This document shows, in pieces, positions 378 to 18,740 of a stretch of 36,575 nt of DNA. Each line of letters opens with the position of its first letter. Position 1 is the first letter of the stretch. The DNA comes from Zoogloea sp. (lineage in GTDB: Bacteria; Pseudomonadota; Gammaproteobacteria; Burkholderiales; Rhodocyclaceae), in assembly GCA_023150095.1 (NCBI GenBank), contig JAKLLO010000030.1:1-36575 (forward strand). The letters run 5' to 3'. The notes beneath the pieces were generated by a model, which was not told the origin of the DNA, did not search any database, and was given only the letters and a program-made list of their open reading frames with translations. The translations under genes were made by a program, and so were the position numbers.

Positions 378-409
378 GTAAAAAAAGCGGCTCAGGCCGC
401 TTTTTTTAC
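378..409. terminator. Perfect bidirectional terminator
   Basis: A perfect 14-bp inverted repeat (378-391 with 396-409, loop TCAG) with a GC core flanked by seven A and seven T residues, so either strand gives a stem followed by a U-tract. It ends grxD and the convergent operon. The stop codon of the minus-strand nucleotidyltransferase (392-394) lies in the loop, so the last six sense codons of that gene (DVKKAA) are read from the terminator arm. Confidence 0.9.
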
Positions 410-1513
410 GTCTGCCGGCAGCGCGACCTGCTCGGTGCTGAGGGGGTGAGTTTCCTGCTTGGCGGGCAGGACCGCCTTGTGGGCCAGATGGTAGGCCAGG
501 AGCAGCGGCGGCATCCGCAGCCAGTGGGCACGGATGTACAGGCTGCGGCGGGCCAGTGGGGTGAGGGCGTCGGCGGTGCTGGGATGCTGCGGGCGCAGCA
601 CCCGGGCGTACATGGCGTCGAGCAGGCGCTGGCCGATGCCGCCTTCGAGGCAGCGGGTGCGGGCCTGGATGCGCTCCGGCAGCGGGGTGTCGAGCATCCG
701 GTGGCAGTAGCGCAGGGCGAGGCGCAGCGGGCCGGCGAGCTGGAGCTGCTCGGCCCGATGGGCCAGCACGTCCCAGGCGGACGCGTCGCGGGCCAGGTGG
801 CGCAGCAGCAGGTCGAGGTCGGTGAGGTCGCGCAGCAGGTTGTCCGGCTCGCCCTCGTGGAAGAGGTGGGACGCGCTGTGCAGGATCAGATCCGGCAGCG
901 ACAGGGTGCTCACGCCGGGCAGGTCAGGCAGCGGCACCGCGGCTTCGATCAGCAGGTTGGCGTCCGGCTTGAGGCGCGCGGTGGGCGGCAGGATGGTGTG
1001 GTGCACGTCGAGGGCCGAGCCGCGGAAGACGTGGCGCATCGCCGGCAGCTCGTGCATCCAGCGGCGGTAGTAGCGCTGGTCGTAGTCGTCGGTGGCGCTG
1101 CTGATCCAGCCCTTGAGCTGGAGGGCCGATTCGGCGTCGGCCAGGCGCGCCTTGGGCAGCAGGATGTCTACGTCCGAGAACAGCCGGCCCTGGGCGGCGG
1201 GCAGCGCGCCGGCCACGTAGGCGGCGCCCTTCAGCAGGATGACGGGAATGCCCAGGGGTTCGAGGGCTTCGCGCAGGAAACGGGCTTCGCGGCGGATCGC
1301 GTGGCGCTGCTCGCCGGCCATCTGGGCGCCGGAGAGCAGGTGGTTGCGGGGCCGTTCCGGGATGTCGTCCTCGACGCCGGCGGCCTGCAGGCGCAGGTAG
1401 AGCCGGCCGAGCAGATTGGCGTGGCGGGCCTGGCGGACGAGCAGATCCCATTGCGAGGGGCCGAGCCGGCGGACCGACTGGGGATCGCGGTAGGCCTGGA
1501 GGAGCAGGTTCAT
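392..1513 (-). CDS. Nucleotidyltransferase family protein (NTP_transf_5 type) of an HprK-related/PqqD-like operon
   Basis: A 373-residue protein of the uncharacterised NTP_transf_5 nucleotidyltransferase family. Visible marks are LLKG (K95, G96) and RLFSDVDILLP, where D114 and D116 form the metal-binding D-x-D of the polymerase-beta fold. The substrate is unknown. Members occur beside HprK-like kinases and PqqD-like proteins, including some lasso-peptide clusters where they are implicated in further modification of phosphorylated peptides. The ATG at 1513 overlaps the kinase stop codon as ATGA, so the genes are translationally coupled. The open frame runs upstream to 2125, but that part is a shadow of the kinase gene. 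The C-terminal DVKKAA is encoded by the terminator arm. Confidence 0.85.
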   Translation of the reverse strand: MNLLLQAYRDPQSVRRLGPSQWDLLVRQARHANLLGRLYLRLQAAGVEDDIPERPRNHLLSGAQMAGEQRHAIRREARFLREALEPLGIPVILLKGAAYVAGALPAAQGRLFSDVDILLPKARLADAESALQLKGWISSATDDYDQRYYRRWMHELPAMRHVFRGSALDVHHTILPPTARLKPDANLLIEAAVPLPDLPGVSTLSLPDLILHSASHLFHEGEPDNLLRDLTDLDLLLRHLARDASAWDVLAHRAEQLQLAGPLRLALRYCHRMLDTPLPERIQARTRCLEGGIGQRLLDAMYARVLRPQHPSTADALTPLARRSLYIRAHWLRMPPLLLAYHLAHKAVLPAKQETHPLSTEQVALPADVKKAA

Positions 1514-2427
1514 CGGGCGTCCTCGGTGGCGAGGCGGTCGAACACCGCGATGGCGTCGTCGAGGCGGCTGTACTCGAAGCTGTAGTTGCGGCAGCGGTCG
1601 ATGGTGCGGCCGACGGTGTCGAAGCCCAGGGGGCCGAGCACGTGGTAGTTCATCGCGTTGTCGGCTAGCTGCATGAAAGCGGCGCCGCTGCCCATCGGAG
1701 TGAGCACGGCGTCGGCACCGGCGCGGTAGCGGGGCAGCACCATCCAGGCGGGATCGGCCCACTCGCCGACGGCGTCGACGCTGGCCCGGGTGGGCGCCAT
1801 CAGGGCCACGGTGCCCTTGGTGGTGTCGCGCACCGGCTGGGTGAGAAAGGCGTCCGGCGCGTAGGTGCGGATGATGTCGATGGAGGCGTTCTTCAGATTG
1901 ACCGGCCGGGCGAGGCCCATGATCTGGCCGGTGTCGAGCCGGATCAGGGTGAGTTCGTCGGACAGCAGGCGCCAGCCCCGATTGACCAGCGCGGCGCACA
2001 GGGTGCTCTTGCCCGAGCCCGGCGGTGCGGGCAGGATCGCGGCGCGATTGCCACGGGCGACGGCGGCGGCGTGGATCACCAGGATGTGGTGGCAGTAGGC
2101 CGTGACGCACCAGTTGAGGCCCCACTCGAGCATCGGCAGGGCCTGGGCGCGGGGCAGCGGCGTGAAGGGCTCGACGGCATCGACCACGAAGCGGGCCTGG
2201 GGTTTGACCCAGCGGCGCACGCCGTGGCCGGGCTGGACGGCGACGTGGAAGTCGGTGAAGTCCGAGGCGTCGGCCAGCGGGTGGTGGGCGTAGAGCCGGG
2301 CGAGCTCGTCGGCGATCTCGGGGATGCCGCTCTGGAGCCGGCAGTTGAACGGGCCGGCGGCGAGCCGGATGCCGTCGCCCGTCAGCCGCTTGCGGAACTC
2401 GGCGGGGGACAGGTCACGGATTCTCAA
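1510..2427 (-). CDS. HprK-related kinase A
   Basis: A 305-residue P-loop protein related to the catalytic part of HPr kinase/phosphorylase. It shows a conserved HAAAV before the loop (H119), the Walker A PPGSGKST (G137 to S141) and LLSDE (about 155-158) in place of the Walker B acidic pair. No HPr gene lies nearby and the HPr-binding C-terminal signature is not recognisable, so the substrate is probably different. An HprK-like enzyme in paeninodin-type lasso clusters phosphorylates a serine of the precursor peptide. The TTG at 2427 is chosen because the family starts at a MRIRDLSPAEFR-like sequence and because it overlaps the PqqD-like gene by 14 bases; an in-frame upstream extension to 2484 exists but reads as non-family sequence. 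Confidence 0.85.
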   Translation of the reverse strand: MRIRDLSPAEFRKRLTGDGIRLAAGPFNCRLQSGIPEIADELARLYAHHPLADASDFTDFHVAVQPGHGVRRWVKPQARFVVDAVEPFTPLPRAQALPMLEWGLNWCVTAYCHHILVIHAAAVARGNRAAILPAPPGSGKSTLCAALVNRGWRLLSDELTLIRLDTGQIMGLARPVNLKNASIDIIRTYAPDAFLTQPVRDTTKGTVALMAPTRASVDAVGEWADPAWMVLPRYRAGADAVLTPMGSGAAFMQLADNAMNYHVLGPLGFDTVGRTIDRCRNYSFEYSRLDDAIAVFDRLATEDAR

Positions 2428-2746
2428 GGCGGGGGCTCGACTGGGCTCGGATGAGGCGCGCGCCGAGCAGTGCCTCGAGGGCAACGGCGACGAATTCGCG
2501 ACAGGCTTCGGGGGCGGCTTCGGGTTCTTCGCGCAGCACGGCGGCGACGAGGTCGTCGGCGTTCAGGCGGCGGCCGGGGATGGCCAGCTGGTCGAGCACG
2601 AAGCGGGTGACCGGGGCGAGCAGTAGGGTCTCGCCGGCGGATGGGTCGTAACGGACCCATCCTTCATCCACTTCTTTCCAACGTACTTCGGCCAGGCCCT
2701 CGAACAGGGTTTCAGAGGCGATGTACTGGGCGCCGGCCGACAGCAA
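2414..2746 (-). CDS. PqqD-like (RRE-type) protein of the HprK-related system
   Basis: About 110 residues with the PqqD-type pattern: an N-terminal strand region (RWKEVDEGWVRYDPSAGETLLL), then helices ending in ALEALLGARLI. PqqD folds bind the leader part of precursor peptides and deliver it to modifying enzymes, so here it is inferred to present a substrate to the kinase and/or nucleotidyltransferase. The frame has no ATG after the upstream stop. The TTG at 2746, 14 bases downstream of the stop of the secreted-protein gene, is the best start; the longer in-frame ATG at 2872 lies inside that gene. The 3' end overlaps the kinase start. Divergent sequence and the non-ATG start make the exact N-terminus uncertain. 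Confidence 0.75.
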   Translation of the reverse strand: MLSAGAQYIASETLFEGLAEVRWKEVDEGWVRYDPSAGETLLLAPVTRFVLDQLAIPGRRLNADDLVAAVLREEPEAAPEACREFVAVALEALLGARLIRAQSSPRLENP

Positions 2747-2760
2747 GACTCGATGCAGGA

Positions 2761-3339
2761 TCAGGCGTTGAGGACGTAATCCAGGTACTGCTTGACCTGG
2801 ACCTTGCCCCACGAGACGCTGGGCACGCTCGGGTTCGGATGCCAGGAGCCGCCGACGACGCCTTCGTTCCACATGGCGATGGCCTGGGCGGCGGTGAACA
2901 GCGGGCTGCCCGCCTTGGCGCTGAGCCAGGCGGCGACGATCTGCCGTTCGAGGGGAGCGTCGCCCGCGGTGTCGGTGCCGGTGATGATGGTGCGGATGGT
3001 TTCGGTGCGGCCAGCCGATGCGGTGAACACGCTGCCGAAGGTCTTGTTGTCGAGGTCATCGACGGTCGGCGGGTTGGCAGCCGCGTAGGCCTGCCAGAAG
3101 GTCACGCCGTTCATCTTCGGGGCGCAGGGGGTGGTGCCGTTCTGGCTCAGGTTGCCGGACGCGGAAAAACCGGACGGCTGCTTGCATTCGGCGGCGAGCG
3201 CGGGGACGCTCTTCAGTGCCATCAGCAGCGGCGCGCCAGCCAGGCCGGTCTGGATGAGCTTGCGTCGATTGGCCTTGGGCGCCTGACCGTCGGTGCTGGG
3301 CTGCAGCTCGGCAGATTTTTCGGGGTGTTCCAGATTCAT
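2761..3339 (-). CDS. Secreted protein with RR-type leader, first gene of the HprK-related operon
   Basis: A 192-residue protein of unknown function. It has an unusually long polar N-terminus (about 24 residues), then NRRKLIQTG (R25, R26), a hydrophobic stretch (about 31-46) and an AxA-like site near 47-50, which resembles a Tat-type or late Sec leader. Two cysteines follow (C52, C72) around an SGFSASGNLS segment. The rest has aromatic and Ala-rich helical segments (FWQAY, VAAWLSAKAG, AMWNEG, VKQYLDYVL). A GAGG ribosome site precedes the ATG. Being first in the operon and ahead of an RRE-like protein, it is the natural candidate substrate of the downstream enzymes, but this is inference. I do not recognise a catalytic motif. 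Confidence 0.75.
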   Translation of the reverse strand: MNLEHPEKSAELQPSTDGQAPKANRRKLIQTGLAGAPLLMALKSVPALAAECKQPSGFSASGNLSQNGTTPCAPKMNGVTFWQAYAAANPPTVDDLDNKTFGSVFTASAGRTETIRTIITGTDTAGDAPLERQIVAAWLSAKAGSPLFTAAQAIAMWNEGVVGGSWHPNPSVPSVSWGKVQVKQYLDYVLNA

Positions 3340-3394: not shown

Positions 3395-3591
3395 GGCCCG
3401 CTGATCACGAGTGTGACATGGGTCCGCTTCTTGGTCGGATTAGGTAAAGCAATTTTCATTCCCCTTTCCCTTTGTGGTAGTAGGGGCATGATTTTTAAAG
3501 AGATAAAACGGGGTGCCGAAATCGTCAGGGGAAATCAGCTGGCGCGTGTAAAAAATGCCGACAAAATCCCGTCCATGGTGCCGGCGTGGTG

Positions 3592-4872
3592 TCAGACGTT
3601 GGCGATGCGGCTGTTGGCGAGGGACAGGCGGCTGGCCAGGACTTCCAGGAATCCCTTGTAGAAGTGCATCTGGCACAGGCTGGTGGCTCGTAGCAGGGCC
3701 GGGGCGCGGATGGTGAGGATGCGCGTTTCGCCGATGGTCTCGACCGAGGCCGTGCGGGCGCCACGCCCTGCCGCGAAGAGCGCCATCTCGCCGAAGCAGT
3801 CGCCGGGGCTGAGGGTGTTGAGCAGATGGCCCTTCTTGACGATGCGCATGTTGCCATCGACGACGAAGCAGAAGTAGTTGCCGGGTTCGCCTTCCTTCAT
3901 CACCACCGCGTTGGGCGGGAACAGCCGCCATTCGGCAAAGCGGACGATCTCCCAGATCTCGACGTCGGTGAACTCGCGGAAGAAGCGGAAGGCGCGCAGG
4001 CGCTCGAACTTCTCGCTGTCGGGCATCTCGCGGGGGTCGGTGGTGAGGCCGCGGTTGCGGTAGGCCTGGGCGAGGTCGTGGGAGAACTCGAGCCAGGTGG
4101 CATAGCGCTCGGACACGTCGCGGCGGATGGCCTTGCAGACGATGGCGTCGAGTTCCGGCGGGATCTCGGGGCGGATGCTCGAGGGCGGCGGCGGGGTCTC
4201 GTGGGCGATCTGGTAGATCAGGCCCACGTTGCTGCTGCTCTCGAAGGGCAGGCGGCCGGTGAGGAGCTGGTACATCACCACGCCGAGGGAGTAGATGTCG
4301 GTGCGGTGGTCGAGGGGCTGTTCGCGGACCTGCTCGGGCGACATGTAGGCCGGCGAGCCGAGGGCTGCGAGCTGGGTGGTCTCGGTGGCGGTGAAGATGG
4401 CCGCGCCGAAATCGGAGATCTTGATGTCCTGGCCTTCGGGTGAGACCAGCAGGATGTTGGCCGGCTTGATGTCCCGGTGGGTGACGCCCTGCAGGTAGGC
4501 GTAGTCCAGCGCGCGGGTGCACTTGAAGATGATCTCGACGAGCCGCTCGAAGGGCAGCAGGTGGTCGGGATGGGTGAAGGCTTCGAGGGTGCCGCCGGGG
4601 ACGTATTCCATCACCACGTAGGCGTCGCGCTCGTCGATCACCGCGTCGTGGATCTGGATGATGTGGGGGTGCTGCAGCTTGCCCGCGAGGGAGGCCTCGT
4701 TGAGCAGCATGTGGTGGTAGAGGGTGGTGTGGTCGGTGACCCGCAGCATCTCGGGGTGGAGCTGCTTGACGGCCACCTCCCGCTGGGAGAAAGGATCGTA
4801 GCCGAGATAGACGTTGCTGGTCGCCCCGGCGCCCAGCAGCCGCCTGACCTCGTATTTGCCGATCCTTTCCAT
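3592..4872 (-). CDS. Eukaryotic-like Ser/Thr protein kinase with C-terminal cyclic-nucleotide-binding domain
   Basis: A 426-residue soluble protein. Residues 7-270 form a Hanks-type kinase: GAGATSNVYLG (14-24), ATP lysine K36, catalytic HRDIKPAN (H132, D134), DFG (154-156) and the activation-segment SPEQ. Residues about 285-420 form a cNMP-binding domain with the phosphate-binding cassette FGEMAL and RTAS (G361, E362, R373). There is no transmembrane segment or PASTA/sensor domain. The plan suggests that cAMP or cGMP gates kinase activity in the same chain; the substrate is unknown. It starts 13 bases after argH and is probably co-transcribed with it. All key kinase residues are present, so it should be active. 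Confidence 0.93.
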   Translation of the reverse strand: MERIGKYEVRRLLGAGATSNVYLGYDPFSQREVAVKQLHPEMLRVTDHTTLYHHMLLNEASLAGKLQHPHIIQIHDAVIDERDAYVVMEYVPGGTLEAFTHPDHLLPFERLVEIIFKCTRALDYAYLQGVTHRDIKPANILLVSPEGQDIKISDFGAAIFTATETTQLAALGSPAYMSPEQVREQPLDHRTDIYSLGVVMYQLLTGRLPFESSSNVGLIYQIAHETPPPPSSIRPEIPPELDAIVCKAIRRDVSERYATWLEFSHDLAQAYRNRGLTTDPREMPDSEKFERLRAFRFFREFTDVEIWEIVRFAEWRLFPPNAVVMKEGEPGNYFCFVVDGNMRIVKKGHLLNTLSPGDCFGEMALFAAGRGARTASVETIGETRILTIRAPALLRATSLCQMHFYKGFLEVLASRLSLANSRIANV

Positions 4873-6430: not shown

Positions 6431-7450
6431 ATGAGTATAAAGCAAAAAGCGCGCCCCGCCGGTCGAAGCCGGTATCCGGCGAGCCTGCCTGATTTTCGCA
6501 ACCTCGGCGTCGTGCTGCGCACGGTGGTGCTGGTCAATGCCCTCGGGCTGGCCGCGGTGCTCGTGCGCAACGATCAGATCGAGGCCTTGTTCGGCGAATT
6601 CCTCGACATGGCGGTGAGGGTGGAGTTTCCGCTGATCCTCTGCGTGGCCGCCTTGTTCCTCCTCAAGCCGATGCTGTTCAGATTGTCTTACGCGGGCGGG
6701 GTGGCGGTGGTGATGCTGGTGGTGGCGGGCGTCGCGATGCTGAGCGGCAGCCTGCTCGCGCCGGTCGAGGTGGACGAGGGCCCGCGCCCGCTGGTGTGGT
6801 CGCTGGTGGTGGGGGCGATCGTGCTGATCTACTTCCACCTGCGCAGCGCGGCGCTGGCGCCGGTGCTGGCGGAGGCGCGTCTGCTGGCGCTCACCGCGCG
6901 GATCCGGCCGCACTTCCTGTTCAACAGCCTGAACGGCGTGCTGGGCGTGCTCCGGCGCGATCCGCGGCGGGCCGAGGAGGGCCTGGAGGAGCTCGCCGAT
7001 CTGTTCCGCGCGCTGATGCAGGACAACCGCGAGCTGGTGCCGCTCTCCGACGAGATCGCCCTGTGCGAGCGTTACCTCAACCTCGAACGCCTTCGCCTGG
7101 GTGACCGCCTGCAGGTGGATTGGCAGCGCGACACCTCGGCGGGCGCCGCGCTGGTGCCGCCGCTGCTGCTCCAGCCGCTGATCGAGAACGCCGTCTATCA
7201 CGGCATCGAGCCCGGCGCGGCGCCGGGCACGGTTTCGATTAACATCGCGCGGCGCGGGGCGGAGGTGTTCATCACCATCGCCAACCCGCTGCTCGACGCC
7301 GAAAGCCACCACGCGGGCAACCGCATGGCCCTGGACAACATCCGCGAACGACTGATGCTTTTCTACGACCTCGAAGCCACCCTCGATACCGAGCAGGATG
7401 CCGACGCCTTCCGCGTGCGCATCCGCCTGCCTTTCCGGAGCGCGCCATGA
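6431..7450 (+). CDS. algZ: AlgZ/LytS-type membrane sensor histidine kinase
   Basis: A 339-residue protein with four predicted membrane segments (about 28-45, 64-80, 88-108, 121-137) and a His_kinase domain. The H-box is ARIRPHFLFNSLN (H161) and the N-box is PLIENAVYHGIEPG. An obvious D-F-D/G-x-G box is weak, as usual for this LytS/YehU/AlgZ family. It should phosphorylate the downstream response regulator. A GTG 33 bases upstream would add 11 residues; the ATG at 6431 (MSIKQKAR) looks better although neither has a good ribosome site. The stop overlaps the regulator's start as ATGA. The argH-algZR neighbourhood supports the name; the signal is unknown. Confidence 0.88.
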   Translation: MSIKQKARPAGRSRYPASLPDFRNLGVVLRTVVLVNALGLAAVLVRNDQIEALFGEFLDMAVRVEFPLILCVAALFLLKPMLFRLSYAGGVAVVMLVVAGVAMLSGSLLAPVEVDEGPRPLVWSLVVGAIVLIYFHLRSAALAPVLAEARLLALTARIRPHFLFNSLNGVLGVLRRDPRRAEEGLEELADLFRALMQDNRELVPLSDEIALCERYLNLERLRLGDRLQVDWQRDTSAGAALVPPLLLQPLIENAVYHGIEPGAAPGTVSINIARRGAEVFITIANPLLDAESHHAGNRMALDNIRERLMLFYDLEATLDTEQDADAFRVRIRLPFRSAP

Positions 7451-8229
7451 GCGAGTCGGCCGACCACGCCGTCGCCCCTCTGTCGGTGCTGATCGTCGAT
7501 GACGAGGCGCCGGCCCGGGAGCGGCTGCAGGATCTGCTCGGCGACATCGCCGACATCCAGCCCACCCGCGTCGCCGGGATGGCGGCCAATGGCGTCGAGG
7601 CGCTGGCGATCCTCGAGCAGGCGCCGGTGGATCTGATCCTCACCGACATCCAGATGCCGGTGATGGCGGGCATCGAGCTGGCCCGTCACGTGGGGCGGCT
7701 TGAGCGTCCGCCGGCGGTGATCTTCACCACCGCCTACGACGAATACGCGGTGCGGGCCTTCGAGCTGGCGGCGGTGGATTACCTGCTCAAGCCGGTGCGC
7801 GCCGGGCGGCTCGCCGAAGCCATCGCCAAGGCCCGCCGCCTGCGTCCGCCGGCCGACGAGGTGCTGCGCCGGATCGCGCCCACCACCCGCAGCCATTTCA
7901 GCGTGAGCGAGCGCGGGCGCATCCTGCTGGTGCCGGTGGCCGACGTGCTCTACCTCAAGGCCGAGCAGAAGTACGTGGTGGCGCGCAGCCTGGAGCGGGA
8001 ATACCTGCTGGACGAATCCCTGGTGCAGCTGGAAGAGGAGTTCCCCGGCCGTTTCCTGCGCATCCACCGCAACTGCCTGATCGCCCGGGACGCCGTGCGC
8101 GGCGTGGCCCGGGCCACCACCGGCGTGGATGGCGAAGCCCACTGGGTGATCCTCCTCGAAGGCCTGCCGGAGCAGCTGCCGGTGAGCCGCCGCCAATGGC
8201 CGGCGGTGAAGGACGCGCTCGGCGTCTGA
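7447..8229 (+). CDS. algR: LytTR-family response regulator (AlgR type)
   Basis: A 260-residue regulator. The receiver domain (about 12-125) has the acidic pair D18/D19 in LIVDDE, phospho-acceptor D67 in ILTDIQMP and K116 in LLKP. The C-terminal LytTR DNA-binding domain (about 150-258) shows the conserved ...VADVLYLKAEQKYVVARS... and FLRIHRNCLIA blocks. It forms a pair with the overlapping kinase gene. In Pseudomonas AlgR controls alginate and surface functions; here the downstream surface-glycan genes make a similar role attractive, but no binding site was identified. Confidence 0.93.
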   Translation: MSESADHAVAPLSVLIVDDEAPARERLQDLLGDIADIQPTRVAGMAANGVEALAILEQAPVDLILTDIQMPVMAGIELARHVGRLERPPAVIFTTAYDEYAVRAFELAAVDYLLKPVRAGRLAEAIAKARRLRPPADEVLRRIAPTTRSHFSVSERGRILLVPVADVLYLKAEQKYVVARSLEREYLLDESLVQLEEEFPGRFLRIHRNCLIARDAVRGVARATTGVDGEAHWVILLEGLPEQLPVSRRQWPAVKDALGV

Positions 8230-8331: not shown

Positions 8332-9417
8332 GTGGGGCGGGCCTTTTCGATCTATCTTGACCTGATACGGGTTTCGGCGGCGTTTCTGGTCTATCTGTAC
8401 CACTCGAACCAGCGCTTCCTGAGTGAAGCCGAGCTTCCCTTCAGCGGCTACGGCCACAGCGTGGTGGTGGTGTTCTTCGTGCTGTCGGGTTTCGTCATCC
8501 GCCACGTCACCGACACCAAGGAGATGCACTGGCCGGACTACGCCGCCAGCCGCATCGCCCGCATCTTCTCGGTCACCGTGCCGACGATCTTCCTGACCCT
8601 GCTCTGCGACGCCATCGGGCGCGCTGTCGAGCCGGCGATCTACGAACACAGCGCATCGGGCCAGGTGCTGGCGCGGGTCGTGTTGAGCCTGCTGCTGCTC
8701 AACGAGGTGTGGCTGATGTCGGTGATGAGCTTCTCGAACCTGCCGTTCTGGTCGATCTGCGTGGAGTTCTGGTACTACGCCGCGTTTGCGCTGGTGGTCT
8801 TCCTGCCCCGGCGCAAGGGCTGGATTGCGGCGGGGCTGCTGGCGATCGCGCTGGGGCCGAAGTTCATCCTGCTGGCGCCGATCTGGTGCTCGGGCGTCGT
8901 GCTGTACCGCTGGCGCTGGCCGAGGCGGCTGGGGCCGAGGTCGTCCCTGGCGCTGGTGGTGTTGAGCCTGGTGGGCATCTGGCAGTTCCACGCCCGGGGG
9001 ATCGACGCCTGGAGCTGTGACTGGCTCAAGGCCACGCTGGGGCAGGATCGAGCTCAGTACCTCGGCTTTGCCAACTACGTGGTCGGCGACTACCTGCTGG
9101 CGGTGCTGGTGTGCATGAACTTCGCCGGCATGCGCAATCTGCTGGCCACGCCGGGCGGCTGGCTGATTGCCGTGGAGCGACCGGTGCGGCGCGCGGCGGG
9201 CTGCACCTTCACGCTCTACCTGCTGCACATGCCGCTGTTCCTGATGTGGAGCGCGGTCGTGCGCGGAAATCCGGCGCAGCCGTGGTACTGGCTGGCGGTG
9301 ACGGGGCTGGTCCTCGCCAGTGTGGTGCTGATCAGCGCCCAGACGGAGGCGCACCGCTACCGGCTGCGCGGCTGGCTGCTCGGGTTTCTCACGCGGCGCG
9401 GCGTGGCGATGGCCTGA
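8332..9417 (+). CDS. Acyltransferase family 3 (OafA-like) integral membrane protein
   Basis: A 361-residue polytopic membrane protein of the acyltransferase-3 family, which transfers acyl (often acetyl) groups to surface sugars from the cytoplasmic side. It has the family N-terminal helix with a conserved His ([11 protein letters not shown]), the [10 protein letters not shown] motif, and about ten hydrophobic segments ending in [10 protein letters not shown] and a final helix. The start is GTG 8332 with GGAG seven bases upstream; no in-frame ATG fits. It is the first gene of the block separating algR from hemC, so O-acetylation of the glycan built by downstream genes is plausible but not shown. 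Confidence 0.88.
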
Positions 9418-9467
9418 TCCGCGGGTGGGAACGTCCGCTTTCGCGGGTGTTCCAACATGGGCTCCCG

Positions 9468-9473
9468 TACAAT
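9468..9473 (+). promoter_or_regulatory. Candidate -10 box (TACAAT) for a leaderless ygiQ transcript
   Basis: TACAAT ends eight bases before the ygiQ ATG, so transcription would begin at or next to the start codon. No ribosome site precedes the ATG, which fits a leaderless transcript. The -35 region is poor, so confidence is low. Confidence 0.3.
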
Positions 9474-9481
9474 CGCGCCCC

Positions 9482-11659
<2,178 letters not shown>

Positions 11660-11873
11660 GGTAAATTTGTGCGTCGCAGCGCCAGGGCTGCACGGGGCGC
11701 TCTCACCTGTCGCCGGTATCATCCGGCCACCCATGTCGGATGGGTTCTCGCGTGTGTGCTGCAGGCAGCATGAGCCGGCCCCCACGGCGCGAGACGGTTT
11801 CATTTGTCGATGAAGTGTTGTTACGCTCACGCAAGCGGACACCTCATGTCCATTAAATACGGGTGGTGAAAGA

Positions 11874-12485
11874 GTGGAAAAGCTGGTCTATAGCCCGAGT
11901 CTCTCCGGACGGCTCGCCTCGCTGATCGATGTGGGTTTCGGGACCTTCCGCGGCTTCGTGCGGCTGGTCCTGGGCGAGGTCGAGTTTCTCGGCGGCCGCC
12001 TCGGCCCCTTCGTGCAGATCCGCCCGAAGGCAGTGAAGCGGCTGGTCTTCGTGTGCCTCGGCAACATCAACCGCAGCGCCTTTGGCCATGTGGTGGCCGA
12101 GGGCTATGGCGCCCGGGTGGCGTCGCTGGGCCTGTCCACCACCACCGGCGCGCCGGCCTTCGAGAAGGCCGTGGCCGCGGCGCCGGTGTATGGCTTTGAT
12201 CTCACCGCCCACCGGGCCACCAACTTCACCGATTTCAAATATCAGCCCGGCGACCTGCTGCTGGCGATGGAGGTGCGCCACGCCCGCGAGCTGATCCGCC
12301 GCGGCATCCCCGCCGACGCCATCGCCCTGCTGGGGCACTGGTCGCGGCCCCACCGCATCCACATCCACGATCCGCACCTGCACACCGACCAGTATTTCCG
12401 GACCTGCTTCGCGATCATCCACTCCGCTGTTGCCAACCTGATCGAGGAGCTGCGCGAGGGGGAAAGCCCATGCCTGACCCGGTAA
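11874..12485 (+). CDS. Low-molecular-weight protein-tyrosine-phosphatase-like protein
   Basis: A 203-residue protein with an LMW-PTP domain from about residue 56. The phosphate loop CLGNINRS (C61, R67, S68) and the general acid HDPH (D166 in the D-P motif) are present, so it should be an active phosphatase. In polysaccharide clusters such enzymes usually dephosphorylate a BY-kinase or act on phosphorylated sugar enzymes; no BY-kinase is present here. The first 55 residues are an extra segment that does not belong to the core domain and includes hydrophobic stretches. Start is GTG 11874 behind GAAAGA. The 3' end overlaps the deacetylase gene by 16 bases. The 214-base gap before it has no clear promoter. 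Confidence 0.85.
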   Translation: MEKLVYSPSLSGRLASLIDVGFGTFRGFVRLVLGEVEFLGGRLGPFVQIRPKAVKRLVFVCLGNINRSAFGHVVAEGYGARVASLGLSTTTGAPAFEKAVAAAPVYGFDLTAHRATNFTDFKYQPGDLLLAMEVRHARELIRRGIPADAIALLGHWSRPHRIHIHDPHLHTDQYFRTCFAIIHSAVANLIEELREGESPCLTR

Positions 12486-13441
12486 AGGTCTATCTGACCT
12501 TCGATATCGAAGTCTGGTGCGGAGGCTGGAAGGATCTCGACGCCAAGTTTCCGGCGAGCTTCGAGCGCTACGTGTACGGCCGCTCGGCCGCCGGCGACTA
12601 CGCGCTGCCGAAAACCCTCGAGATCCTCGACCGTAACGGCCTGAAAGGCGTGTTCTTCGTCGAGCCGCTGTTTGCCGCCCGGTTTGGCGTCGAGCACCTC
12701 GCCACCATCGTCGACCTGATCCGCGCCGGCGGTCACGACGTGCAGCTCCATCTTCACCCGGAATGGTCGGACGAGCTGCGGCCGCTGCCTTTTCCCGGCG
12801 CTAGCCGCAAGCGCCAGCATCTGGCCTACTACACGCTCGAAGAACAGACCATCCTGATCCGCAAGGGGCTCGACCTGATGGCTCAGGTGGATTGCCACCC
12901 GATCGCCTTCCGGGCCGGCAGCTTCGCCGCCAACGCCGACACCTTCCGCGCGCTGGAGGCCTGCGGGCTTCAGCTCGATTTCAGCCTCAACGAAGTGAGC
13001 GCCGACAGCGCGCCCGACCTCCGCGGGAAGGCGGATTTCATCCAGCCCAGCCACATCGGGGCGGTCAAAAGCGTTCCGATGACGGTCTTTCGTGACGGCA
13101 TCGGGCGCCTGCGTCCGGCCCAGCTCGGCAGCTGCAGCGTGTCCGAACTGGAAGGTGCGCTGGAATCGACCCGCGCGCTGGGCGTCGGTCATTTCGTGCT
13201 GCTCTCCCACAATTTCGAAATGCTGAAACAGGGACGAAGCAACCCAGATGGTATCGTTGTGCGCCGGTTTGAAAAATTGTGCAAACTTTTGGCGGCGCGG
13301 CGTGACGAATTTACTGTATCCACCACGGCTATGCTGCCAACATCTGGGGTCAGTCCACAGAAGGTGTTGTTGCCTTCCGTCGGTTTGCCGGCAACGCTGT
13401 GGCGTCTTGGCGAGCAGGCTGCGCGGCGTTTTATTGGCTGA
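12470..13441 (+). CDS. Polysaccharide deacetylase (NodB-like)
   Basis: A 323-residue carbohydrate-esterase-4-type protein without a signal peptide, so a cytoplasmic or lipid-linked sugar substrate is likely. The catalytic pattern is LTFDIE (D12), GHDVQLHLHPEW (H94, H96 as metal ligands) and FRAGSF. Such proteins remove N-acetyl (or formyl) groups from sugars in surface polysaccharide and glycolipid pathways. It overlaps the phosphatase gene by 16 bases and is followed by a 141-base gap before gtrA. The substrate cannot be read from the sequence. Confidence 0.9.
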   Translation: MPDPVKVYLTFDIEVWCGGWKDLDAKFPASFERYVYGRSAAGDYALPKTLEILDRNGLKGVFFVEPLFAARFGVEHLATIVDLIRAGGHDVQLHLHPEWSDELRPLPFPGASRKRQHLAYYTLEEQTILIRKGLDLMAQVDCHPIAFRAGSFAANADTFRALEACGLQLDFSLNEVSADSAPDLRGKADFIQPSHIGAVKSVPMTVFRDGIGRLRPAQLGSCSVSELEGALESTRALGVGHFVLLSHNFEMLKQGRSNPDGIVVRRFEKLCKLLAARRDEFTVSTTAMLPTSGVSPQKVLLPSVGLPATLWRLGEQAARRFIG

Positions 13442-13582
13442 GGCCGGCCACCTGTCCGCCCAGCCCGCGCCTGAGCGCCTGGCCGAGCGGAGCGGGCGAT
13501 CCATTGAATCCAGCCCGTGGTGTGCCATGAAATCTGCCTTCGATCAGAGTCCGGCGCGGACTTTCACCGTGCGGAGCCCTTC

Positions 13583-14005
13583 TTGACCGGGCCGGCCGAC
13601 GCCGGGCCCACGTCGCTGCTGCGCGATCAACGGCGGGCAACGGTGGCCCGCTATGCCTTGACGGGTGTCGGACTGCTGGTGATCGACATGTGTGTCTTCT
13701 TCGTGCTCGCCCGGGTCTTCCAGGTCACGCCGGCGGCCTCGCAGCTGGCGGCGCGAACGGCCGGGGCGGTGGCCGGATTTTTCGGGCACAAGTATTTCTC
13801 GTTCGGCAACGGGCGCCAGGGCGCGGCCGTACCCGTGCGCCAGGCGCTGCTCTACGGCCTCGTGACGGTGGTGACGATCTGCATCTCGCCGCTGGTGCTG
13901 GTGGGGCTGCTCGCGCTGATCGACAACCTGGTGGTGGCCAAGCTCGGCACCGAGGTGGTCATGGTGGCCTTCAATTACTTCTGCCTCAGTAGGGTGTTTC
14001 GATGA
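13583..14005 (+). CDS. GtrA-family membrane protein (putative lipid-linked sugar flippase)
   Basis: A 140-residue protein with four membrane segments and the GtrA signature GHKYFSF followed by a C-terminal YFCLSRVF. GtrA proteins are thought to flip undecaprenyl-phosphate-linked sugars. The TTG at 13583 has GGAG at 13573-13576, six bases upstream, and makes the family length; a GTG at 13517 is in frame but adds non-family sequence. The stop overlaps the glycosyltransferase start (ATGA at 14002), so it works with that enzyme. A 19-codon frame (13527-13586) ends with its stop overlapping this TTG and may couple translation. Confidence 0.85.
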   Translation: MTGPADAGPTSLLRDQRRATVARYALTGVGLLVIDMCVFFVLARVFQVTPAASQLAARTAGAVAGFFGHKYFSFGNGRQGAAVPVRQALLYGLVTVVTICISPLVLVGLLALIDNLVVAKLGTEVVMVAFNYFCLSRVFR

Positions 14006-15012
14006 AGCTCGATGCTGAACGGGTCGATATGTCGGTGGTTGTGCCGGCCTTCAACGAGGCTGACGGGCTGCCCCGTTTCGTCGAGGCGCTCGACCGGGTG
14101 CTGACGCCGCTGAACGTCCGCGTCGAACTGGTCATCGTCAATGACGGCTCGCGGGATGCCACCGAACGGGTGCTCGCCGACATCGCCCGGCACCGGGCCG
14201 ATGTGGTGCCGGTCAATTTCTCGCGCAATTTCGGCAAGGAGGCCGCGCTGGCCGCGGGCCTGGCCGTGGCGACGGGGGCCTGCGTGCTGTTCATGGACGC
14301 CGACCTCCAGCATCCGCCCGAAGCCCTCCCCGAGATGCTTGCCCGGTGGCGCGAAGGCTTCGACGTGGTGAATGGCCGCAAGCGGCGGCGCAGCCACGAG
14401 CCGGCGCTTTACCGCAAGTTCGCGGCGCTCTTCAACGGGCTGATGAGCCACGCGGTGGGCGGCGACATGGCCGGGGCGAGCGATTTCAAGCTGCTCGACC
14501 GCCAGGTGGTCAATACCCTGCTGCAGTTTCCCGAGCGCAACCGCTTCTTCCGCGGCATGGTGACGTGGGTTGGCTACCGCGTGGCCGATGTCGAGTTCGA
14601 CGTGCAGGAGCGCGAGATCGGCAGCACCAAGTGGTCGCTGGGCGGGTTGATCCGCTACTCCCTCGGCAACCTGCTGGCGTTCTCGTCGCTGCCGCTGGTG
14701 GCGGTGGCCTACGTGGGCTTCGCCACCGTTGGTTTCGGTACCTTGCTGCTCATCCAGACGCTTTACCGTTATTTCACCGGCACCGCGGCGATCGGCTTCA
14801 CCACCGTGATCGCGGTGCAGGTGATGCTGGGCGGGATGATCCTGACCGCGCTGGGGGTGATCGCGATCTACCTGGCGCGCATGTACGACGAACAGAAGCA
14901 GCGGCCGATGTTCATCATCCGCCGACCGCGTGCCCACCAGCCCCCGGGCGGCGGTAGCGAGCGCCCGCCACTGGTGATCGCCGGCGGCCGCGATTTCGGA
15001 GATGGTGAATGA
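14002..15012 (+). CDS. GtrB/DPM1-like family 2 glycosyltransferase
   Basis: A 336-residue enzyme with a GT-A catalytic domain ([33 protein letters not shown] with D99 and D101) and two C-terminal transmembrane helices (about 229-256 and 268-291). This plan matches undecaprenyl-phosphate glycosyltransferases (GtrB, ArnC, DPM1-like) that load a sugar onto the lipid carrier at the cytoplasmic face. It pairs with the overlapping GtrA gene, and its own stop overlaps the next gene as ATGA. The sugar is not predictable. Confidence 0.92.
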
Positions 15013-16802
15013 TCTATTCCCCTTCGGCCCCGGCGTCGATGAGCCTTCGGCAGGGCGTGAGCGCCTTCTGCCTGCTTCTCGCGCTTGCGCTGGTGCTGCA
15101 TTTCCCTCATTTCGGCTCGCACACTGGCGACCCGAACTTTGACTTCTACCTGCACTACCACTGGGCCAAGGAATACGCCCAGCGCTTTGCCGAGGGCTGG
15201 CTCTATCCGCGCTGGACCTTCTTCGCCCGCTACGGGCTGGGCGAGCCGGTGTTCGTGTTCTATTCGCCGCTGTACTACCTGCTCACGGCGCTGCTCACCC
15301 TGACGGGCCTCGGCACCTGGAACGCCATGCATGTGGTGGAGGTGTTGAGCAACGCAGTGTTCGGGTACTTCATTTACCTTACCTGCCGCCACTACACGTC
15401 CAACCGGCTGGCGCTGGTGGCCGCGTTTGCCGCCTCGGCCAACCCCTTCCTGGTGATGCTGCACTACAAGTTCCAGGGCTTTGCGTGGGCGTCGGTGGGC
15501 TATGCAGCCCACGGCATGCTGCTGTGGTCGATGTTCCGTCCCAGGGCGTCGTTCGAGCGCATCAACCTGTGGGCGGCGGCGGCCCTGGGCATTGCGGTGG
15601 TGGGCCACACCATGAGCACCCTGGTGATGCTGATCTCGTATTCGGCCGCGGTGCTGGTGGCGCCCACGGCGTGGGGCGGGGTGAGCTTTGCCGGCCTCCT
15701 GCGGCGGCTGATGGCGTGGGCCGGGACTGTGGCCATCGGGCTGGGGCTGGGTGCCTTCTACCTGCTGCCGGCGCTGGGCTCCACCTCGCTGATCAACGTG
15801 GAAGGCTGGACGGGCCCGCATATCCTGCAGGCCTTCGCGTGGCCCACGTTCTCGGCGCTCATCAACGGGGTGCAGTGGTTCTCCTTCCAGTGGCCGCTGG
15901 CGGTGCCGGTGCTGGCGCTGGTGGTCGTCGAGGGCTGGTTCCTGTTCCGCCTGCGGGCCGGGGCCGGGCAGGCGGCCAATCCGCTGCTGATCCGGCTGTT
16001 CCTGGTGCTGGGCACGGCGGTGTTCTTCGCCTCCGAGCTGTCGTATCCGCTGTGGACCTTCGAATGGCCGCTGCTGCGCATCCAGCTGCCTTACCGCTTC
16101 CTGTCGGTGGGCTACGTGATGGTGATCGTCATCGGCGTGGTGGGGGCGCAGGTGGCGGGCAACGTCGGGCGGCGGGGCTGGGCGGCCGGGCTGGTGCGCT
16201 CGGTGCTGGCCATCGGCGTGCTGGGCCTGCTGATCGCCGCCAAGGCCACCTATCTCGATGGCGGCCCGCTGCCGTCCACGGTGGTCAAGGACGAATACAC
16301 CTTCACCCACCTCAGCAAGTGGACGCGCACACCCAACGGTGGTTTCCGCTGCGATCTGGCGCCGGCCGATTGCGAGGAGCTGCCCTTCAGCGCCGGGGCC
16401 TTCCGGGGCACCTCGGAGTACGCCACGCGCTTCGCGCCGCCGGCCTGGGTGGATTACGCCATCGCCGGTTTTGAAAAGGAATGTCAAAACGACGGCGCCC
16501 GCTGCGGCCCTGCGCACCACGTGGCCAACACCGTCACATGGAAAATCGAGGCGCTGGCGGACACTACCGTGCATCTGCCGGTGTTTTATTTCCCGATGTG
16601 GGCCCTGGAGCGCGATCGGCAGCCGGTGCCGATGCAGTACGACACCAAAAACGGGTTGATGCAGGTGAATCTGCCTGCCGGCCCCCACGAAGTGCGCCTG
16701 ATCTGGACTGAAACCCCGCTTTTCGAGCGGGCCCGCTGGATCTCGATGGCATCGCTCGGCGTGTTGATTGCCCTGGCTGTTGCTGGCAGAGTGCGGCGCT
16801 GA
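15009..16802 (+). CDS. GT-C-like multipass membrane protein (6-pyruvoyl-tetrahydropterin synthase-related domain type)
   Basis: A 597-residue membrane protein with about ten helices and a C-terminal extracytoplasmic domain (about 430-570, with C466-like CQNDGARC and CDLAPADC cysteines) before a last helix. The first loop carries the acidic pattern GDPNFDFYLHYHW, typical of GT-C glycosyltransferases using lipid-phosphate sugars in the periplasm. It should transfer the sugar prepared by the GtrB/GtrA pair. Translation is coupled to the upstream gene (ATGA at 15009). The exact family name is from memory and less certain than the membrane plan. Confidence 0.8.
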   Translation: MIYSPSAPASMSLRQGVSAFCLLLALALVLHFPHFGSHTGDPNFDFYLHYHWAKEYAQRFAEGWLYPRWTFFARYGLGEPVFVFYSPLYYLLTALLTLTGLGTWNAMHVVEVLSNAVFGYFIYLTCRHYTSNRLALVAAFAASANPFLVMLHYKFQGFAWASVGYAAHGMLLWSMFRPRASFERINLWAAAALGIAVVGHTMSTLVMLISYSAAVLVAPTAWGGVSFAGLLRRLMAWAGTVAIGLGLGAFYLLPALGSTSLINVEGWTGPHILQAFAWPTFSALINGVQWFSFQWPLAVPVLALVVVEGWFLFRLRAGAGQAANPLLIRLFLVLGTAVFFASELSYPLWTFEWPLLRIQLPYRFLSVGYVMVIVIGVVGAQVAGNVGRRGWAAGLVRSVLAIGVLGLLIAAKATYLDGGPLPSTVVKDEYTFTHLSKWTRTPNGGFRCDLAPADCEELPFSAGAFRGTSEYATRFAPPAWVDYAIAGFEKECQNDGARCGPAHHVANTVTWKIEALADTTVHLPVFYFPMWALERDRQPVPMQYDTKNGLMQVNLPAGPHEVRLIWTETPLFERARWISMASLGVLIALAVAGRVRR

Positions 16803-16838
16803 GCCCGATTTGGGCGCCTGTTTCAACGAGTAATCCGA

Positions 16839-18050
16839 ATGACCGACAAGCAAGTCCGCCCGCCGTGTTACGTGCTGGGCATCGAGACCCAGATTGGCCT
16901 GAGCCTCGTCCGCGAGCTGGGCGAGGCGGGCGTGCCGGTGGTCGGCATCGCCACCGGCGACAAGGCCATCGGCCTGCAGTCACGCTACCTCGCCCACGGC
17001 GAGATCCTCAAAAAACCGCGCACCGACGCCGGCCTGGCCGAGCTGCGCGCCATCGGCGAACGCTACGGCGCCGGTTATCTGCTCACGGTCTCGGAAGCCA
17101 ACACCACCTGGCTGATCGAGAATCGCGACCGGCTTGGCGTCATCACGCCGCTGCTGCCCTCGAAGGACGCCTTCGCCATCGTGCTCGACAAGGGCCGCAC
17201 CCTCGAAGCCGCCGAGGCGGTGGGCATCGACGTGCCCAAGAGCGCCAGCCCGGCCACCTGGGCCGACGTGGAGCGGGTGGCGGCGAGCTTCCCTTTCCCG
17301 GCGGTGCTCAAGTGGTCCGACCCCAACGGCGTGGCGCCGGCGCTCCACGCGGCGGGCATCGAGCTGGTGAAGGCTGAATATGTTTATACCGCCGACGAGT
17401 TCCTGCGCGCCGCCGAGCGCTATCGGCCGGTGGAGATGTGGCCGCTGGTGCAGGAATACTGCCCGGGCGTGGGCCTCGGCCAGTTCTTCTTCATGCACGA
17501 AGGCAAGGCCGTGCGGCGCTTCCAGCATCTGCGGGTGGCCGAGTGGCCGCCCGAGGGCGGGTTCTCCAGCGTGTGTGACGGGGTGCCGCTGGACCAGTTC
17601 AAGGATCTGCAGGAGAAATCCATCCGCCTGCTCCAGTCGATCGGCTGGGAAGGCGTGGCGATGGTCGAGTACCGCTACGACCCGGCCTCGGGCCGCGCGG
17701 TGCTGATGGAGGTGAACGGCCGCTTCTGGGGCAGCTTTCCGCTGGCGATGTACAGCGGCGCCGGCTTCGGCCTGCTGGCCTACAGCCTGCAGGGCCAGGG
17801 CGTGATGCCCAGCCTGCCGGCCCTGCGCGAGAACCTGCGCTGCCGGATGGTGGCTACCGAGATCAAGCGCCTGCGGCGCATCCTGCTGCAGCCCGGGCTG
17901 ATCCGCGACCGGACCTTCCGGGTGCGTCCGGTGCATGAGGTGCTGCGCTTCGTGGGCGACTTCCTGCGCCCGTCGGTGTGCTACTACGTGTGGAACCCGA
18001 AGGACGTGAAGCCCTTCATCCGCGACGTGAGGAACGCCATCGGCGTGTGA
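16839..18050 (+). CDS. ATP-grasp domain protein (carboxylate-amine ligase type)
   Basis: A 403-residue soluble protein with an ATP-grasp fold: a preATP-grasp N-terminus (CYVLGIETQIGLSLVREL), an ATP-binding middle (FPAVLKWSD, VQEYCPG) and the metal-binding LMEVNGRFWGSF block (E and N). ATP-grasp ligases join a carboxylate to an amine or other nucleophile through an acyl-phosphate, and in surface-glycan loci they may attach amino acids to sugars. It follows the membrane protein by 36 bases with a weak ribosome site and ends the unit just before a strong terminator. Substrate unknown. Confidence 0.88.
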   Translation: MTDKQVRPPCYVLGIETQIGLSLVRELGEAGVPVVGIATGDKAIGLQSRYLAHGEILKKPRTDAGLAELRAIGERYGAGYLLTVSEANTTWLIENRDRLGVITPLLPSKDAFAIVLDKGRTLEAAEAVGIDVPKSASPATWADVERVAASFPFPAVLKWSDPNGVAPALHAAGIELVKAEYVYTADEFLRAAERYRPVEMWPLVQEYCPGVGLGQFFFMHEGKAVRRFQHLRVAEWPPEGGFSSVCDGVPLDQFKDLQEKSIRLLQSIGWEGVAMVEYRYDPASGRAVLMEVNGRFWGSFPLAMYSGAGFGLLAYSLQGQGVMPSLPALRENLRCRMVATEIKRLRRILLQPGLIRDRTFRVRPVHEVLRFVGDFLRPSVCYYVWNPKDVKPFIRDVRNAIGV

Positions 18051-18072
18051 GCGGCATCGCGGCAGATCAACG

Positions 18073-18110
18073 CAAGACGGCCAGGCAACGCGCCTGGCCG
18101 TCTTGTTTTT
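18073..18110 (+). terminator. Strong intrinsic terminator ending the glycan gene set
   Basis: A perfect 14-bp stem (18073-18086 with 18092-18105, loop AACGC) followed by TTTTT. It lies 23 bases after the ATP-grasp stop and only acts on the plus strand, as the other side has no T-run after the stem. Confidence 0.92.
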
Positions 18111-18125
18111 GGTCTTGCGGATCGC

Positions 18126-18740
18126 TCAGGCGCGGCGGCGGAGCGCGCCCAGGCCGGCCAGACCGAGAGCGGTGAGTGCCGCAGTGGCCGGCTCGGGCAC
18201 GGCGCTGCCGGTGTCGGTGATGATCGGCGACTGGGATACGCTGACGCCAGCCGGTGGCGTGCCGGCAAAGCTGAAGCTGATGCCGGTGACGAAGGCCAGC
18301 GGGTCGGCCGGATCGAGCGCCGCGCTGGTCTCGATGCCGGTGATGCGGAAGGACGTGACCGCGCTGCCGAAGGTGAACTGCGCGCCGGTGGCGAGGGTGG
18401 TGCTGAGGAGCACTTCGCCGCCGCCGGTGGTGTCGTAGAGGTTGTAGAGCCCGTCGCCGGCGTTGGTGCTCACCTGCACGCCGGCAAAGCTCACGCCGGC
18501 GGTGGAGACGGCGTAGTTGTAGCCGGTGGCCACCAGCGGGTCGATGAACCACCAGCCGGGCGCGCCCGGCACCACGAAGGCAAACCCGCTTGCTGGCGCA
18601 CCTTCGCCTGAAATGGGCATCAGCGGGTCGGAGGGCGTAGAGCCAGACGGCGGCGTGATGATGGCGACTGCGGCGATGGCCTGGGTGGAGGCGGCGAGGG
18701 CGATGGCGCCGATCATGCTGGCGAGCAAGCGATTCATCAT
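18126..18740 (-). CDS. PEP-CTERM sorting domain protein
   Basis: A 204-residue secreted protein. It has a Sec signal peptide (MMNRLLASMIGAIALAASTQAIAA-like start), a Gly/Ala/Thr-rich beta-type body without catalytic motifs, and a C-terminal VPEP (181-184), hydrophobic helix and RRRA tail, the PEP-CTERM anchor that exosortase recognises. Such proteins are surface or biofilm-matrix components in EPS-producing bacteria. The exosortase itself is not in the window. The start (ATG at 18740, or 18737) sits behind a strong GGAAGGAAG ribosome site. It converges with the glycan set and diverges from the carbonic anhydrase gene (210-base gap, no clear promoter seen). Confidence 0.93.
   Translation of the reverse strand: MMNRLLASMIGAIALAASTQAIAAVAIITPPSGSTPSDPLMPISGEGAPASGFAFVVPGAPGWWFIDPLVATGYNYAVSTAGVSFAGVQVSTNAGDGLYNLYDTTGGGEVLLSTTLATGAQFTFGSAVTSFRITGIETSAALDPADPLAFVTGISFSFAGTPPAGVSVSQSPIITDTGSAVPEPATAALTALGLAGLGALRRRA

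Follow-up and report, generated by a model that had tools for sequence, protein, structure and literature searches.

A 36,575-nucleotide stretch of DNA from Zoogloea sp. (the window) carries a minus-strand operon of four genes. They encode a secreted protein, a PqqD-like recognition element of the kind that serves ribosomally synthesized and post-translationally modified peptides (RiPP recognition element, or RRE), an HprK-related kinase A, and an NTP_transf_5 nucleotidyltransferase (NTase) (Table 1). We propose that the RRE, the kinase, and the NTase form an "HPr-rel-A" module that resembles the system for linear polyphosphorylated peptides (LPP) of Bacillota. This module probably modifies a matrix protein that is exported by the twin-arginine translocation (Tat) pathway and that belongs to the XrtA/PEP-CTERM exopolysaccharide programme; the chemistry is taken from published relatives. 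The gene set, the conserved precursor family and its conserved residues, the control sites shared with PEP-CTERM genes, and the co-occurrence with XrtA are read from sequence. From these we infer every chemical step, the binding of the leader by the RRE, the modified residue, regulation by PrsR/RpoN, and the location in the matrix.

In the mechanism that we envisage, PrsR and sigma-54 RNA polymerase would switch on the operon along with the genes for PEP-CTERM proteins. The secreted protein would be synthesised with its Tat-type signal, and the RRE would bind this leader in the cytoplasm and hand the precursor to the kinase. The HprK-like kinase would then phosphorylate a conserved serine just past the signal, which in the window would be S61 or S56, and the NTP_transf_5 enzyme would elaborate the phosphate with a nucleotidyl or sugar group. 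Finally, the folded protein would exit by Tat, signal peptidase would expose the modified N-terminal segment, and the protein would join the extracellular matrix. The proposed order (modification, then export) fits because a kinase that uses ATP works inside the cell and because Tat exports folded protein.

This proposal places HprK-related kinase A in a cellular programme and offers a likely substrate family with candidate residues for modification, which makes it directly testable. If it is correct, then RRE-guided modification, which is known for small peptides, would extend to a whole Tat-exported protein. Also, the floc-linked XrtA/PEP-CTERM matrix programme would have a second, exosortase-independent class of secreted proteins that bear a phosphate-based mark.

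An earlier sequence-only reading of the window had named the RRE, the HprK-like kinase, and the NTase, with the secreted protein as their likely substrate. That much stands, but it missed the Tat signal, the likeness to LPP (PMC13381572), and the control sites. We recovered the operon with the same coordinates and open reading frames: a 14-base gap separates the first two genes (2747-2760), and the others overlap by 14 bases (2414-2427) and by ATGA (1510-1513). We also agree that neither a lasso macrocyclase nor a lasso peptidase is among the four operon genes.

Table 1. Positions in the window of the operon's genes and of the sites discussed in the text
Feature	Positions	Strand	Remarks
Secreted protein, 192 aa, presumed substrate	2761-3339	-	Without Pfam or NCBIfam model
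PqqD-like RRE, 110 aa	2414-2746	-	TTG start inferred
HprK-related kinase A, 305 aa	1510-2427	-	TTG start inferred; TIGR04352
NTP_transf_5 NTase, 373 aa	392-1513	-	ATG start; PF14907
Tat-type signal, codons 25-49	3193-3267	-	Twin arginine to likely cleavage site V45-P-A-L-A49
Mature N-terminal motif, codons 52-65, candidate modification site	3145-3186	-	From alignment
17-base enhancer box TGTCG-N6-TTTACA, PEP-CTERM motif 1 type, predicted PrsR site	3547-3563	-	Pattern match
Degenerate sigma-54 (-24/-12) site GGGAATGAAAATTGC	3449-3463	-	GG and GC kept; 3 mismatches to TGGCACN5TTGC

Conservation of the operon and of its secreted protein

The window is a single 36.6-kb contig among the 317 of an assembly that is 88.8% complete with 5.9% contamination. 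Going by the kinase, it is closest among named relatives to Zoogloea sp. 1C4 (96% identity), and between these two the dN/dS ratio is 0.08-0.31 for all four genes. For a broader comparison, we used a 369-genome sample of the class, in which 41 genomes have a kinase over the TIGR04352 cut-off (the kinase genomes, which spread over 28 families of the sample). We compiled 113 loci: 30 from the 41 kinase genomes, the best 80 of 478 named relatives, two annotated plasmid loci, and the window. (Three loci are duplicates: L021 is the window itself, L106 repeats L004, and L058 repeats L007.) The profile for the secreted family was grown from 56 seeds, which were picked upstream of the kinase by an RR plus SGNxS pattern, and it was searched on the plus strand only.

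Homologues of the secreted protein do lie beside these enzymes in other genomes, as the sequence-only reading expected. The profile places a member of the secreted family no more than 1.6 kb upstream of the kinase in 111 of the 113 loci, the three duplicates included. An RRE adjoins the kinase in 111 of 113 (the weakest match has E 0.016), and the NTase is within 400 bases downstream of the kinase in 109 of 113. (Of the four loci with no NTase match, L087 and L074 are near a contig end, and L028 and L030 are not.) This recurrence across kinase loci excludes a chance arrangement of the four genes. Among the 369 genomes, the secreted family is matched at E <= 0.001 in 54, and 32 of the 33 genomes with a match of at least 70 bits are kinase genomes (the exception is G080).

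On the plus strands of the 113 loci, the profile gave a single extra match outside the position upstream of the kinase. It is in L099, where the module is doubled, with a second precursor and a second NTase copy downstream (10001-14000). In the Vibrio plasmid module L115, an unannotated frame of about 80 codons (11733-12018, plus strand) lies between the secreted protein and the kinase and is a candidate for a divergent RRE.

The secreted protein of the window matches nothing in Pfam or NCBIfam, no family in these databases is matched by more than 2 of 99 family members, and the search for relatives in the PDB gave none that are credible (best E 0.12). These 99 members, out of 111, were aligned; the 12 left out were the three duplicates, two at contig ends (L033, L097), one with an uncertain start (L053), two from plasmids (L115, L116), and four outliers (L014, L016, L028, L030). 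Mean column identity is 11%, and conservation peaks in the signal and in the first residues past it. The twin arginine is nearly invariant (R25 in 98/99 and R26 in 99/99), and further signal positions are conserved as well (T41 in 75/99, L42 in 77/99, S44 in 81/99, and P46 in 77/99). In the mature segment, the most conserved positions are C52 (97/99), S56 (97/99), and S61 (99/99), followed by S65 (77/99). Relative to the position aligned with A49, S61 lies 10 to 15 residues further on in 93/99 members and S56 lies 6 to 11 residues further on in 93/99. S61 was counted as an aligned serine; the literal string SGNxS is present in 56 of the 110 signal regions that we examined. Four of the precursors left out of the alignment (L033, L053, L097, and L115) also carry SGN.

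The C-terminal part differs in length and sequence among members, and the L028 precursor has just 74 aa, ending about 12 residues past the signal. In most aligned members, the C-terminal part can be recognised as one family by its GYW and AAxLNA motifs. Residue L139 is identical in 93/99. A GYWK...AAYLNA domain also occurs in L135, in a longer frame that has no precursor part (1443-2315, minus strand), and L136 encodes a paralogue with this domain and its own RR signal, with no kinase within the stretch (3405-4610, minus strand).

With a twin arginine, a hydrophobic stretch, a cleavage site, and a TatC encoded in the same genome (243.4 bits), the secreted protein has the features of a Tat substrate, and its export is predicted. 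It does not have a PEP-CTERM tail: its C-terminus is ...QYLDYVLNA, without a Pfam match. The window leader, GLAGAPLLMAL, has no Tyr or Trp three residues before the Pro and so does not contain the LPP-type [Y/W]xxP motif. Since the loci yielded just 2 other Tat signals to serve as controls, we do not claim that the TLxSRP of the family's signal is unusual for Tat signals.

The modifying enzymes and their published relatives

The window kinase is a full member of TIGR04352 "HprK-related kinase A" (380.7 bits against a cut-off of 200), versus 14 bits for the HPr(Ser) kinase model TIGR00679, and the kinase profile matches HPr kinase structures (1jb1, E 0.003). Across 27 aligned kinases, H119, K140 (in Walker A), D157, and E158 are invariant; lasso-peptide kinases require a His-Lys-Asp-Asp set (PMC9266682). 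The NTase matches PF14907 (182.7 bits against a cut-off of 31.2) and has the signature KGxAY ... SDVD ... D. Its DxD and third Asp are invariant in 106 NTases, and we take them, from the fold family, to be the catalytic set. Judging from these residues, both enzymes look active.

As to what these families do, the NCBIfam names for TIGR04352 and TIGR04353 give no function or substrate and we found none, nor did a full-text search of the open-licence literature find a paper on HprK-related kinase A. Within that literature, we also know of no printed description of the module. The kinase and the PqqD-like protein already had family names in NCBIfam, which the earlier reading missed.

The RRE of the window scores below the cut-offs of both TIGR04353 "HPr-rel-A system PqqD family peptide chaperone" (23.2 bits against 35) and PF05402 (16.6 against 23.4). 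As 89 of 90 aligned relatives from the same gene position match TIGR04353 at E <= 0.01, we regard it as a divergent relative by position and not as a scored member. The profile of these 90 relatives matches the lasso RREs TbiB1 (5v1u, E 9e-4) and TfuB1 (6jx3, E 0.013), and both matches extend along the greater part of the profile. A role in pyrroloquinoline quinone (PQQ) synthesis was ruled out, with PF05402 below its cut-off and none of the other three genes being pqq genes. The window's genome has two more PqqD-domain matches (G000:C188 11168-11362 and G000:C36 26963-27157; loci L002 and L003). They are in long open frames of 731 and 750 aa, so these RRE domains are probably parts of fusion proteins.

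Among published systems, LPP comes closest. Its clusters comprise an RRE, an HprK-like kinase, an NTP transferase, a leader peptidase that resembles SipW, and an exporter, and they often lie close to loci for capsular polysaccharide (PMC13381572). The kinase of LPP places phosphate on Ser3 of the core, adjacent to the cleavage site, and between one and four phosphates were observed (PMC13381572). Like LPP, the operon has a discrete RRE, an HprK-like kinase, and an NTP transferase but no macrolactam cyclase. The two families also share a conserved precursor N-terminus with a variable C-terminus, cleavage of the signal-peptidase type, a modified serine (a candidate one in our case) near the new N-terminus, and a frequent location in polysaccharide loci. 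In contrast to LPP, the window leader is of the Tat type, the kinase belongs to TIGR04352, the control sites are of the PEP-CTERM type, and the precursor, at about 200 residues, is a protein in which a domain can be recognised. The operon also differs in that neither a SipW-like SpI leader peptidase nor an MsbA-like exporter is among its four genes; beyond these, the window and the neighbour clusters were inspected by eye alone.

Paeninodin and pseudomycoidin clusters (PadeK, ThcoK, PsmK, and PsmN; PMC9266682) also share the RRE and HprK-like kinase with the window, and pseudomycoidin has a nucleotidyltransferase-type protein as well. There, the kinase acts on a serine of the precursor and PsmN on the phosphate (PMC9266682). 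Specifically, PsmK phosphorylates the serine, to which PsmN then attaches one or two hexoses; an alternative left open in that study is nucleotidylation with subsequent action of a host enzyme (PMC9266682). Unlike these clusters, the operon has no lasso cyclase (C) or B2 peptidase, and its conserved serines are near the mature N-terminus instead of the C-terminus. No macrolactam synthetase or B2 peptidase is among the four genes, and none was seen by eye, without a profile search, in the window or in the largest neighbour clusters. A lasso peptide was ruled out as the product of an operon without a cyclase. Relative to the HPr-rel-A entries themselves, with which the window shares a full TIGR04352 kinase and, in the same position, a divergent RRE, what we add is the secreted family, the conserved serine motif, and the PEP-CTERM-type control sites.

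A sister group with short precursors points the same way as our proposal. We sampled 20 regions, around short frames matched in the 369 genomes, weaker kinase matches, and two lone domain matches. They hold 15 short precursors, one to three per system, with the signal RRxF..YxAPx[ILV] and, by eye, Gly-Ser within the first few residues of the mature part. The first motif position is Y in 15/15 although the pattern allowed Y, F, W, or A, and YxxPx[IVL] fits the published type of RRE-binding motif, [Y/W]xxPx[L/V/I/F/A] (PMC13381572). A kinase accompanies such a precursor in 7 of the 20 regions (L117, L119, L120, L121, L122, L124, and L126). An RRE is matched in five of the seven (not in L121 or L122), and PF14907 is matched in L119, L124, and L126, among the frames that were scanned. 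Six of the seven kinases were scanned, and these score 49 to 85 bits, which is below the TIGR04352 cut-off. Three of the precursors were scanned as well and matched no NCBIfam family. Seven other kinase regions (L127-L133) have no such short precursor, and L118, L123, L125, and L134 have a short Tat-type precursor with no kinase in the stretch.

Control sites and the XrtA/PEP-CTERM programme

Upstream of the window's secreted gene, a 17-base box is followed, after an 83-base spacer, by a degenerate sigma-54 site, and the start codon comes 207 bases after the box. For comparison, PEP-CTERM motif 1 is described as 17 nucleotides that end in TTTACA, with a spacer of 32-92 nucleotides to a sigma-54 motif (PMC1569441). 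It precedes 99 of 167 proteobacterial PEP-CTERM genes and is predicted to bind PrsR; a few further sites precede other, unnamed genes (PMC1569441). Our box agrees with motif 1 as described in the text, as distinct from the logos, of PMC1569441.

The same sites recur across the family. A loose form of the box is present in 67 of 108 upstream regions of the secreted gene (0 in the opposite orientation and 0.12 in shuffles) and a strict form in 43 of 108 (0 in the opposite orientation and 0.0 in shuffles). Sigma-54 sites that retain GG and GC and have no more than 2 mismatches lie within 260 bases in 66 of 108 regions, versus 7 on the reverse strand; with at most 1 mismatch, they are in 27 of 104 regions, versus 0.9 in shuffles and 2 on the reverse strand. 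Box and sigma-54 site occur together in 53 of the 108 regions. Because the box pattern was written after seeing these upstream sequences, it is the literature and the remainder of the genome that test it independently.

The window's genome has 10 strict boxes, against 0 in a backwards control. Five of the nine others (L137 and L139-L142) are 67 to 161 bases before a frame whose tail fits the script's pattern for PEP-CTERM, and a sixth (L138) precedes a frame with what is, by eye, an atypical PEP-CTERM tail. The sigma-54 sites at these six boxes have 0, 0, 1, 1, 1, and 3 mismatches. No PEP-CTERM-like frame was found within the stretch examined for the remaining boxes (L143-L145). Another 24 strict boxes are listed for the 80 named loci, and the script assigned 19 of them to PEP-CTERM genes, or 18 after one (L066, minus strand) was judged false by eye. 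(Among the rest, the box in L053 is the secreted gene's own, and the one in L052 is inside the kinase gene.) Thus, control sites of the PrsR/RpoN type, like those of PEP-CTERM genes, precede the secreted gene, which is presumably controlled by PrsR and RpoN. The module and the XrtA/PEP-CTERM system (PrsK/PrsR/PrsT; PMC1569441, PMC9850573) have the same type of box and sigma-54 site, and in many genomes they also share a locus. Since the window protein has a Tat-type signal and no PEP-CTERM tail, unlike PEP-CTERM proteins, it appears to be in this regulon without being an exosortase substrate.

The presence of the kinase is also linked to XrtA, which is over its cut-off in 73 of the 369 genomes: 35 of 41 kinase genomes as compared to 38 of 328 others (P = 1.4e-22). 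To limit lineage effects, we counted by hand within the families that include both kinds of genome, and XrtA was in 12 of 16 kinase genomes and in 3 of 16 others (P = 0.002, among the matches listed; this count is partial, with most match-less genomes unlisted). An RpoN-dependent PEP-CTERM gene is involved in floc formation in an Aquincola strain (PMC9850573).

Two or more exopolysaccharide markers of the XrtA type are within 10 kb in at least 25 of the 80 named loci, and one is in 10. At least 18 named loci, none of them among the 25, instead have two or more of hemA, prfA, prmC, grx4, and ntrB nearby (for example, the Zoogloea relative L035); the window itself shows grx4. These counts are lower bounds, as only 61 of the 80 loci start 10 kb before the kinase. 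Also, genes were called with a simple program that accounts for about 69% of bases on average and leaves one locus wholly uncovered, which is why the marker counts are not our main evidence and why the tests of XrtA co-occurrence and of the control sites were added. NCBIfam was used to check representatives of PrsT, PrsK, the chain-length determinant, the export protein, the tyrosine autokinase, TIGR03016, the XrtA ATPase, and the EpsB2 glycosyltransferase. Two other markers, the deacetylase and the FemAB-like protein, owe their names to inspection by eye, and the NtrC cluster was excluded as its representative is a true NtrC. In L046, a trypsin-like/HtrA-like serine protease, possibly a processing protease, is encoded near the XrtA export protein gene and the module (7380-8192, plus strand); proteases of this type are in 18 loci, mostly about 2.7 kb upstream of the kinase.

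Competing explanations and the surroundings of the operon

Several observations weigh against our proposal. In the window, the box by itself is only weakly significant: a slightly longer pattern with one mismatch allowed gives one match where 0.15 are expected, and at least one match arises in 14 of 100 shuffles. The window's sigma-54 site has 3 mismatches, and 28 of the 108 upstream regions have neither box nor sigma-54 site. SGN is absent from five of the precursors left out of the alignment (L014, L016, L028, L030, and L116). Nine of the 41 kinase genomes have no secreted-family match of at least 70 bits (G057, G091, G134, G213, G259, G286, G303, G314, and G323), six have no XrtA over the cut-off (G008, G052, G057, G186, G249, and G286), and the kinase in L069 has no adjoining precursor or RRE (10001-10897). 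The top PDB match of the RRE profile is a designed helical protein (5h7c, E 1.7e-4, 33 positions), which we take as chance. When we compared distance matrices with the kinase distance removed, the signal co-varied more with the NTase (0.34) than with the RRE (0.23), and the serine motif co-varied with neither the RRE (0.03) nor the NTase (-0.04). Because co-variation did not single out the RRE and the leader, the putative binding between them is drawn from knowledge of the family. Finally, deletion of the LPP NTP transferase is reported to have caused no detectable change in the test host (PMC13381572).

Alternatively, the product of the operon could be a RiPP with a role as diffusible signal or antibacterial agent: the leader and serine motif would be modified, and the variable C-terminal part would be the active agent. 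This would account for an enzyme set like that of LPP and paeninodin clusters, for a C-terminal part that varies in length and sequence, and for the 74-aa precursor of L028. We consider it unlikely, as the C-terminal part is a recognisable family in most members, a similar domain occurs in L135 without the precursor part, and the control sites are common with PEP-CTERM genes. Also, no exporter or immunity gene was seen by eye, without a profile search, in the 45 largest neighbour clusters. It is rather doubtful, too, that the module covalently links the protein to exopolysaccharide, with the phosphorylated serine, capped by a nucleotidyl or sugar group, serving as primer or anchor for XrtA-dependent polysaccharide outside the cell.

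The signal is conserved beyond its twin arginine (T41, L42, S44, and P46) and Tat exports folded proteins, which would suit a PqqD-like protein that is a Tat proofreading chaperone and retains the precursor until folding is complete. The kinase would govern this step through phosphorylation of either the chaperone or the signal, and the protein would be exported unmodified. However, conservation is higher at two serines of the mature segment than at those signal positions, the NTase would be left unexplained, and published relatives of the RRE present precursors to processing or modifying enzymes (PMC9266682, PMC13381572), so this explanation seems improbable. Most improbable of all is that the kinase is a regulatory HPr-type kinase with another target and that its neighbours are merely carried along. 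The precursor and the RRE are each beside the kinase in 111 of 113 loci, the kinase genomes belong to 28 families of the sample, and the scores for TIGR04352 and TIGR00679 are 380.7 and 14 bits; in favour of a regulatory kinase, we can cite the distant HPr kinase match and one orphan copy (L069).

The operon's neighbours in the window are genes for glutaredoxin and a Ser/Thr kinase and then argH (named by eye). The Ser/Thr protein kinase, which has a cyclic-nucleotide-binding domain, lies between argH and the operon (3592-4872, minus strand). A gene of cluster c48, identified by position alone, is at the corresponding place in L035, L036, and L041. Further away, about 5 to 15 kb from the operon (8332-18740), the window encodes an acyltransferase, a low-molecular-weight phosphatase, a GtrA-like protein, a family 2 glycosyltransferase, and a PEP-CTERM protein (18126-18740).

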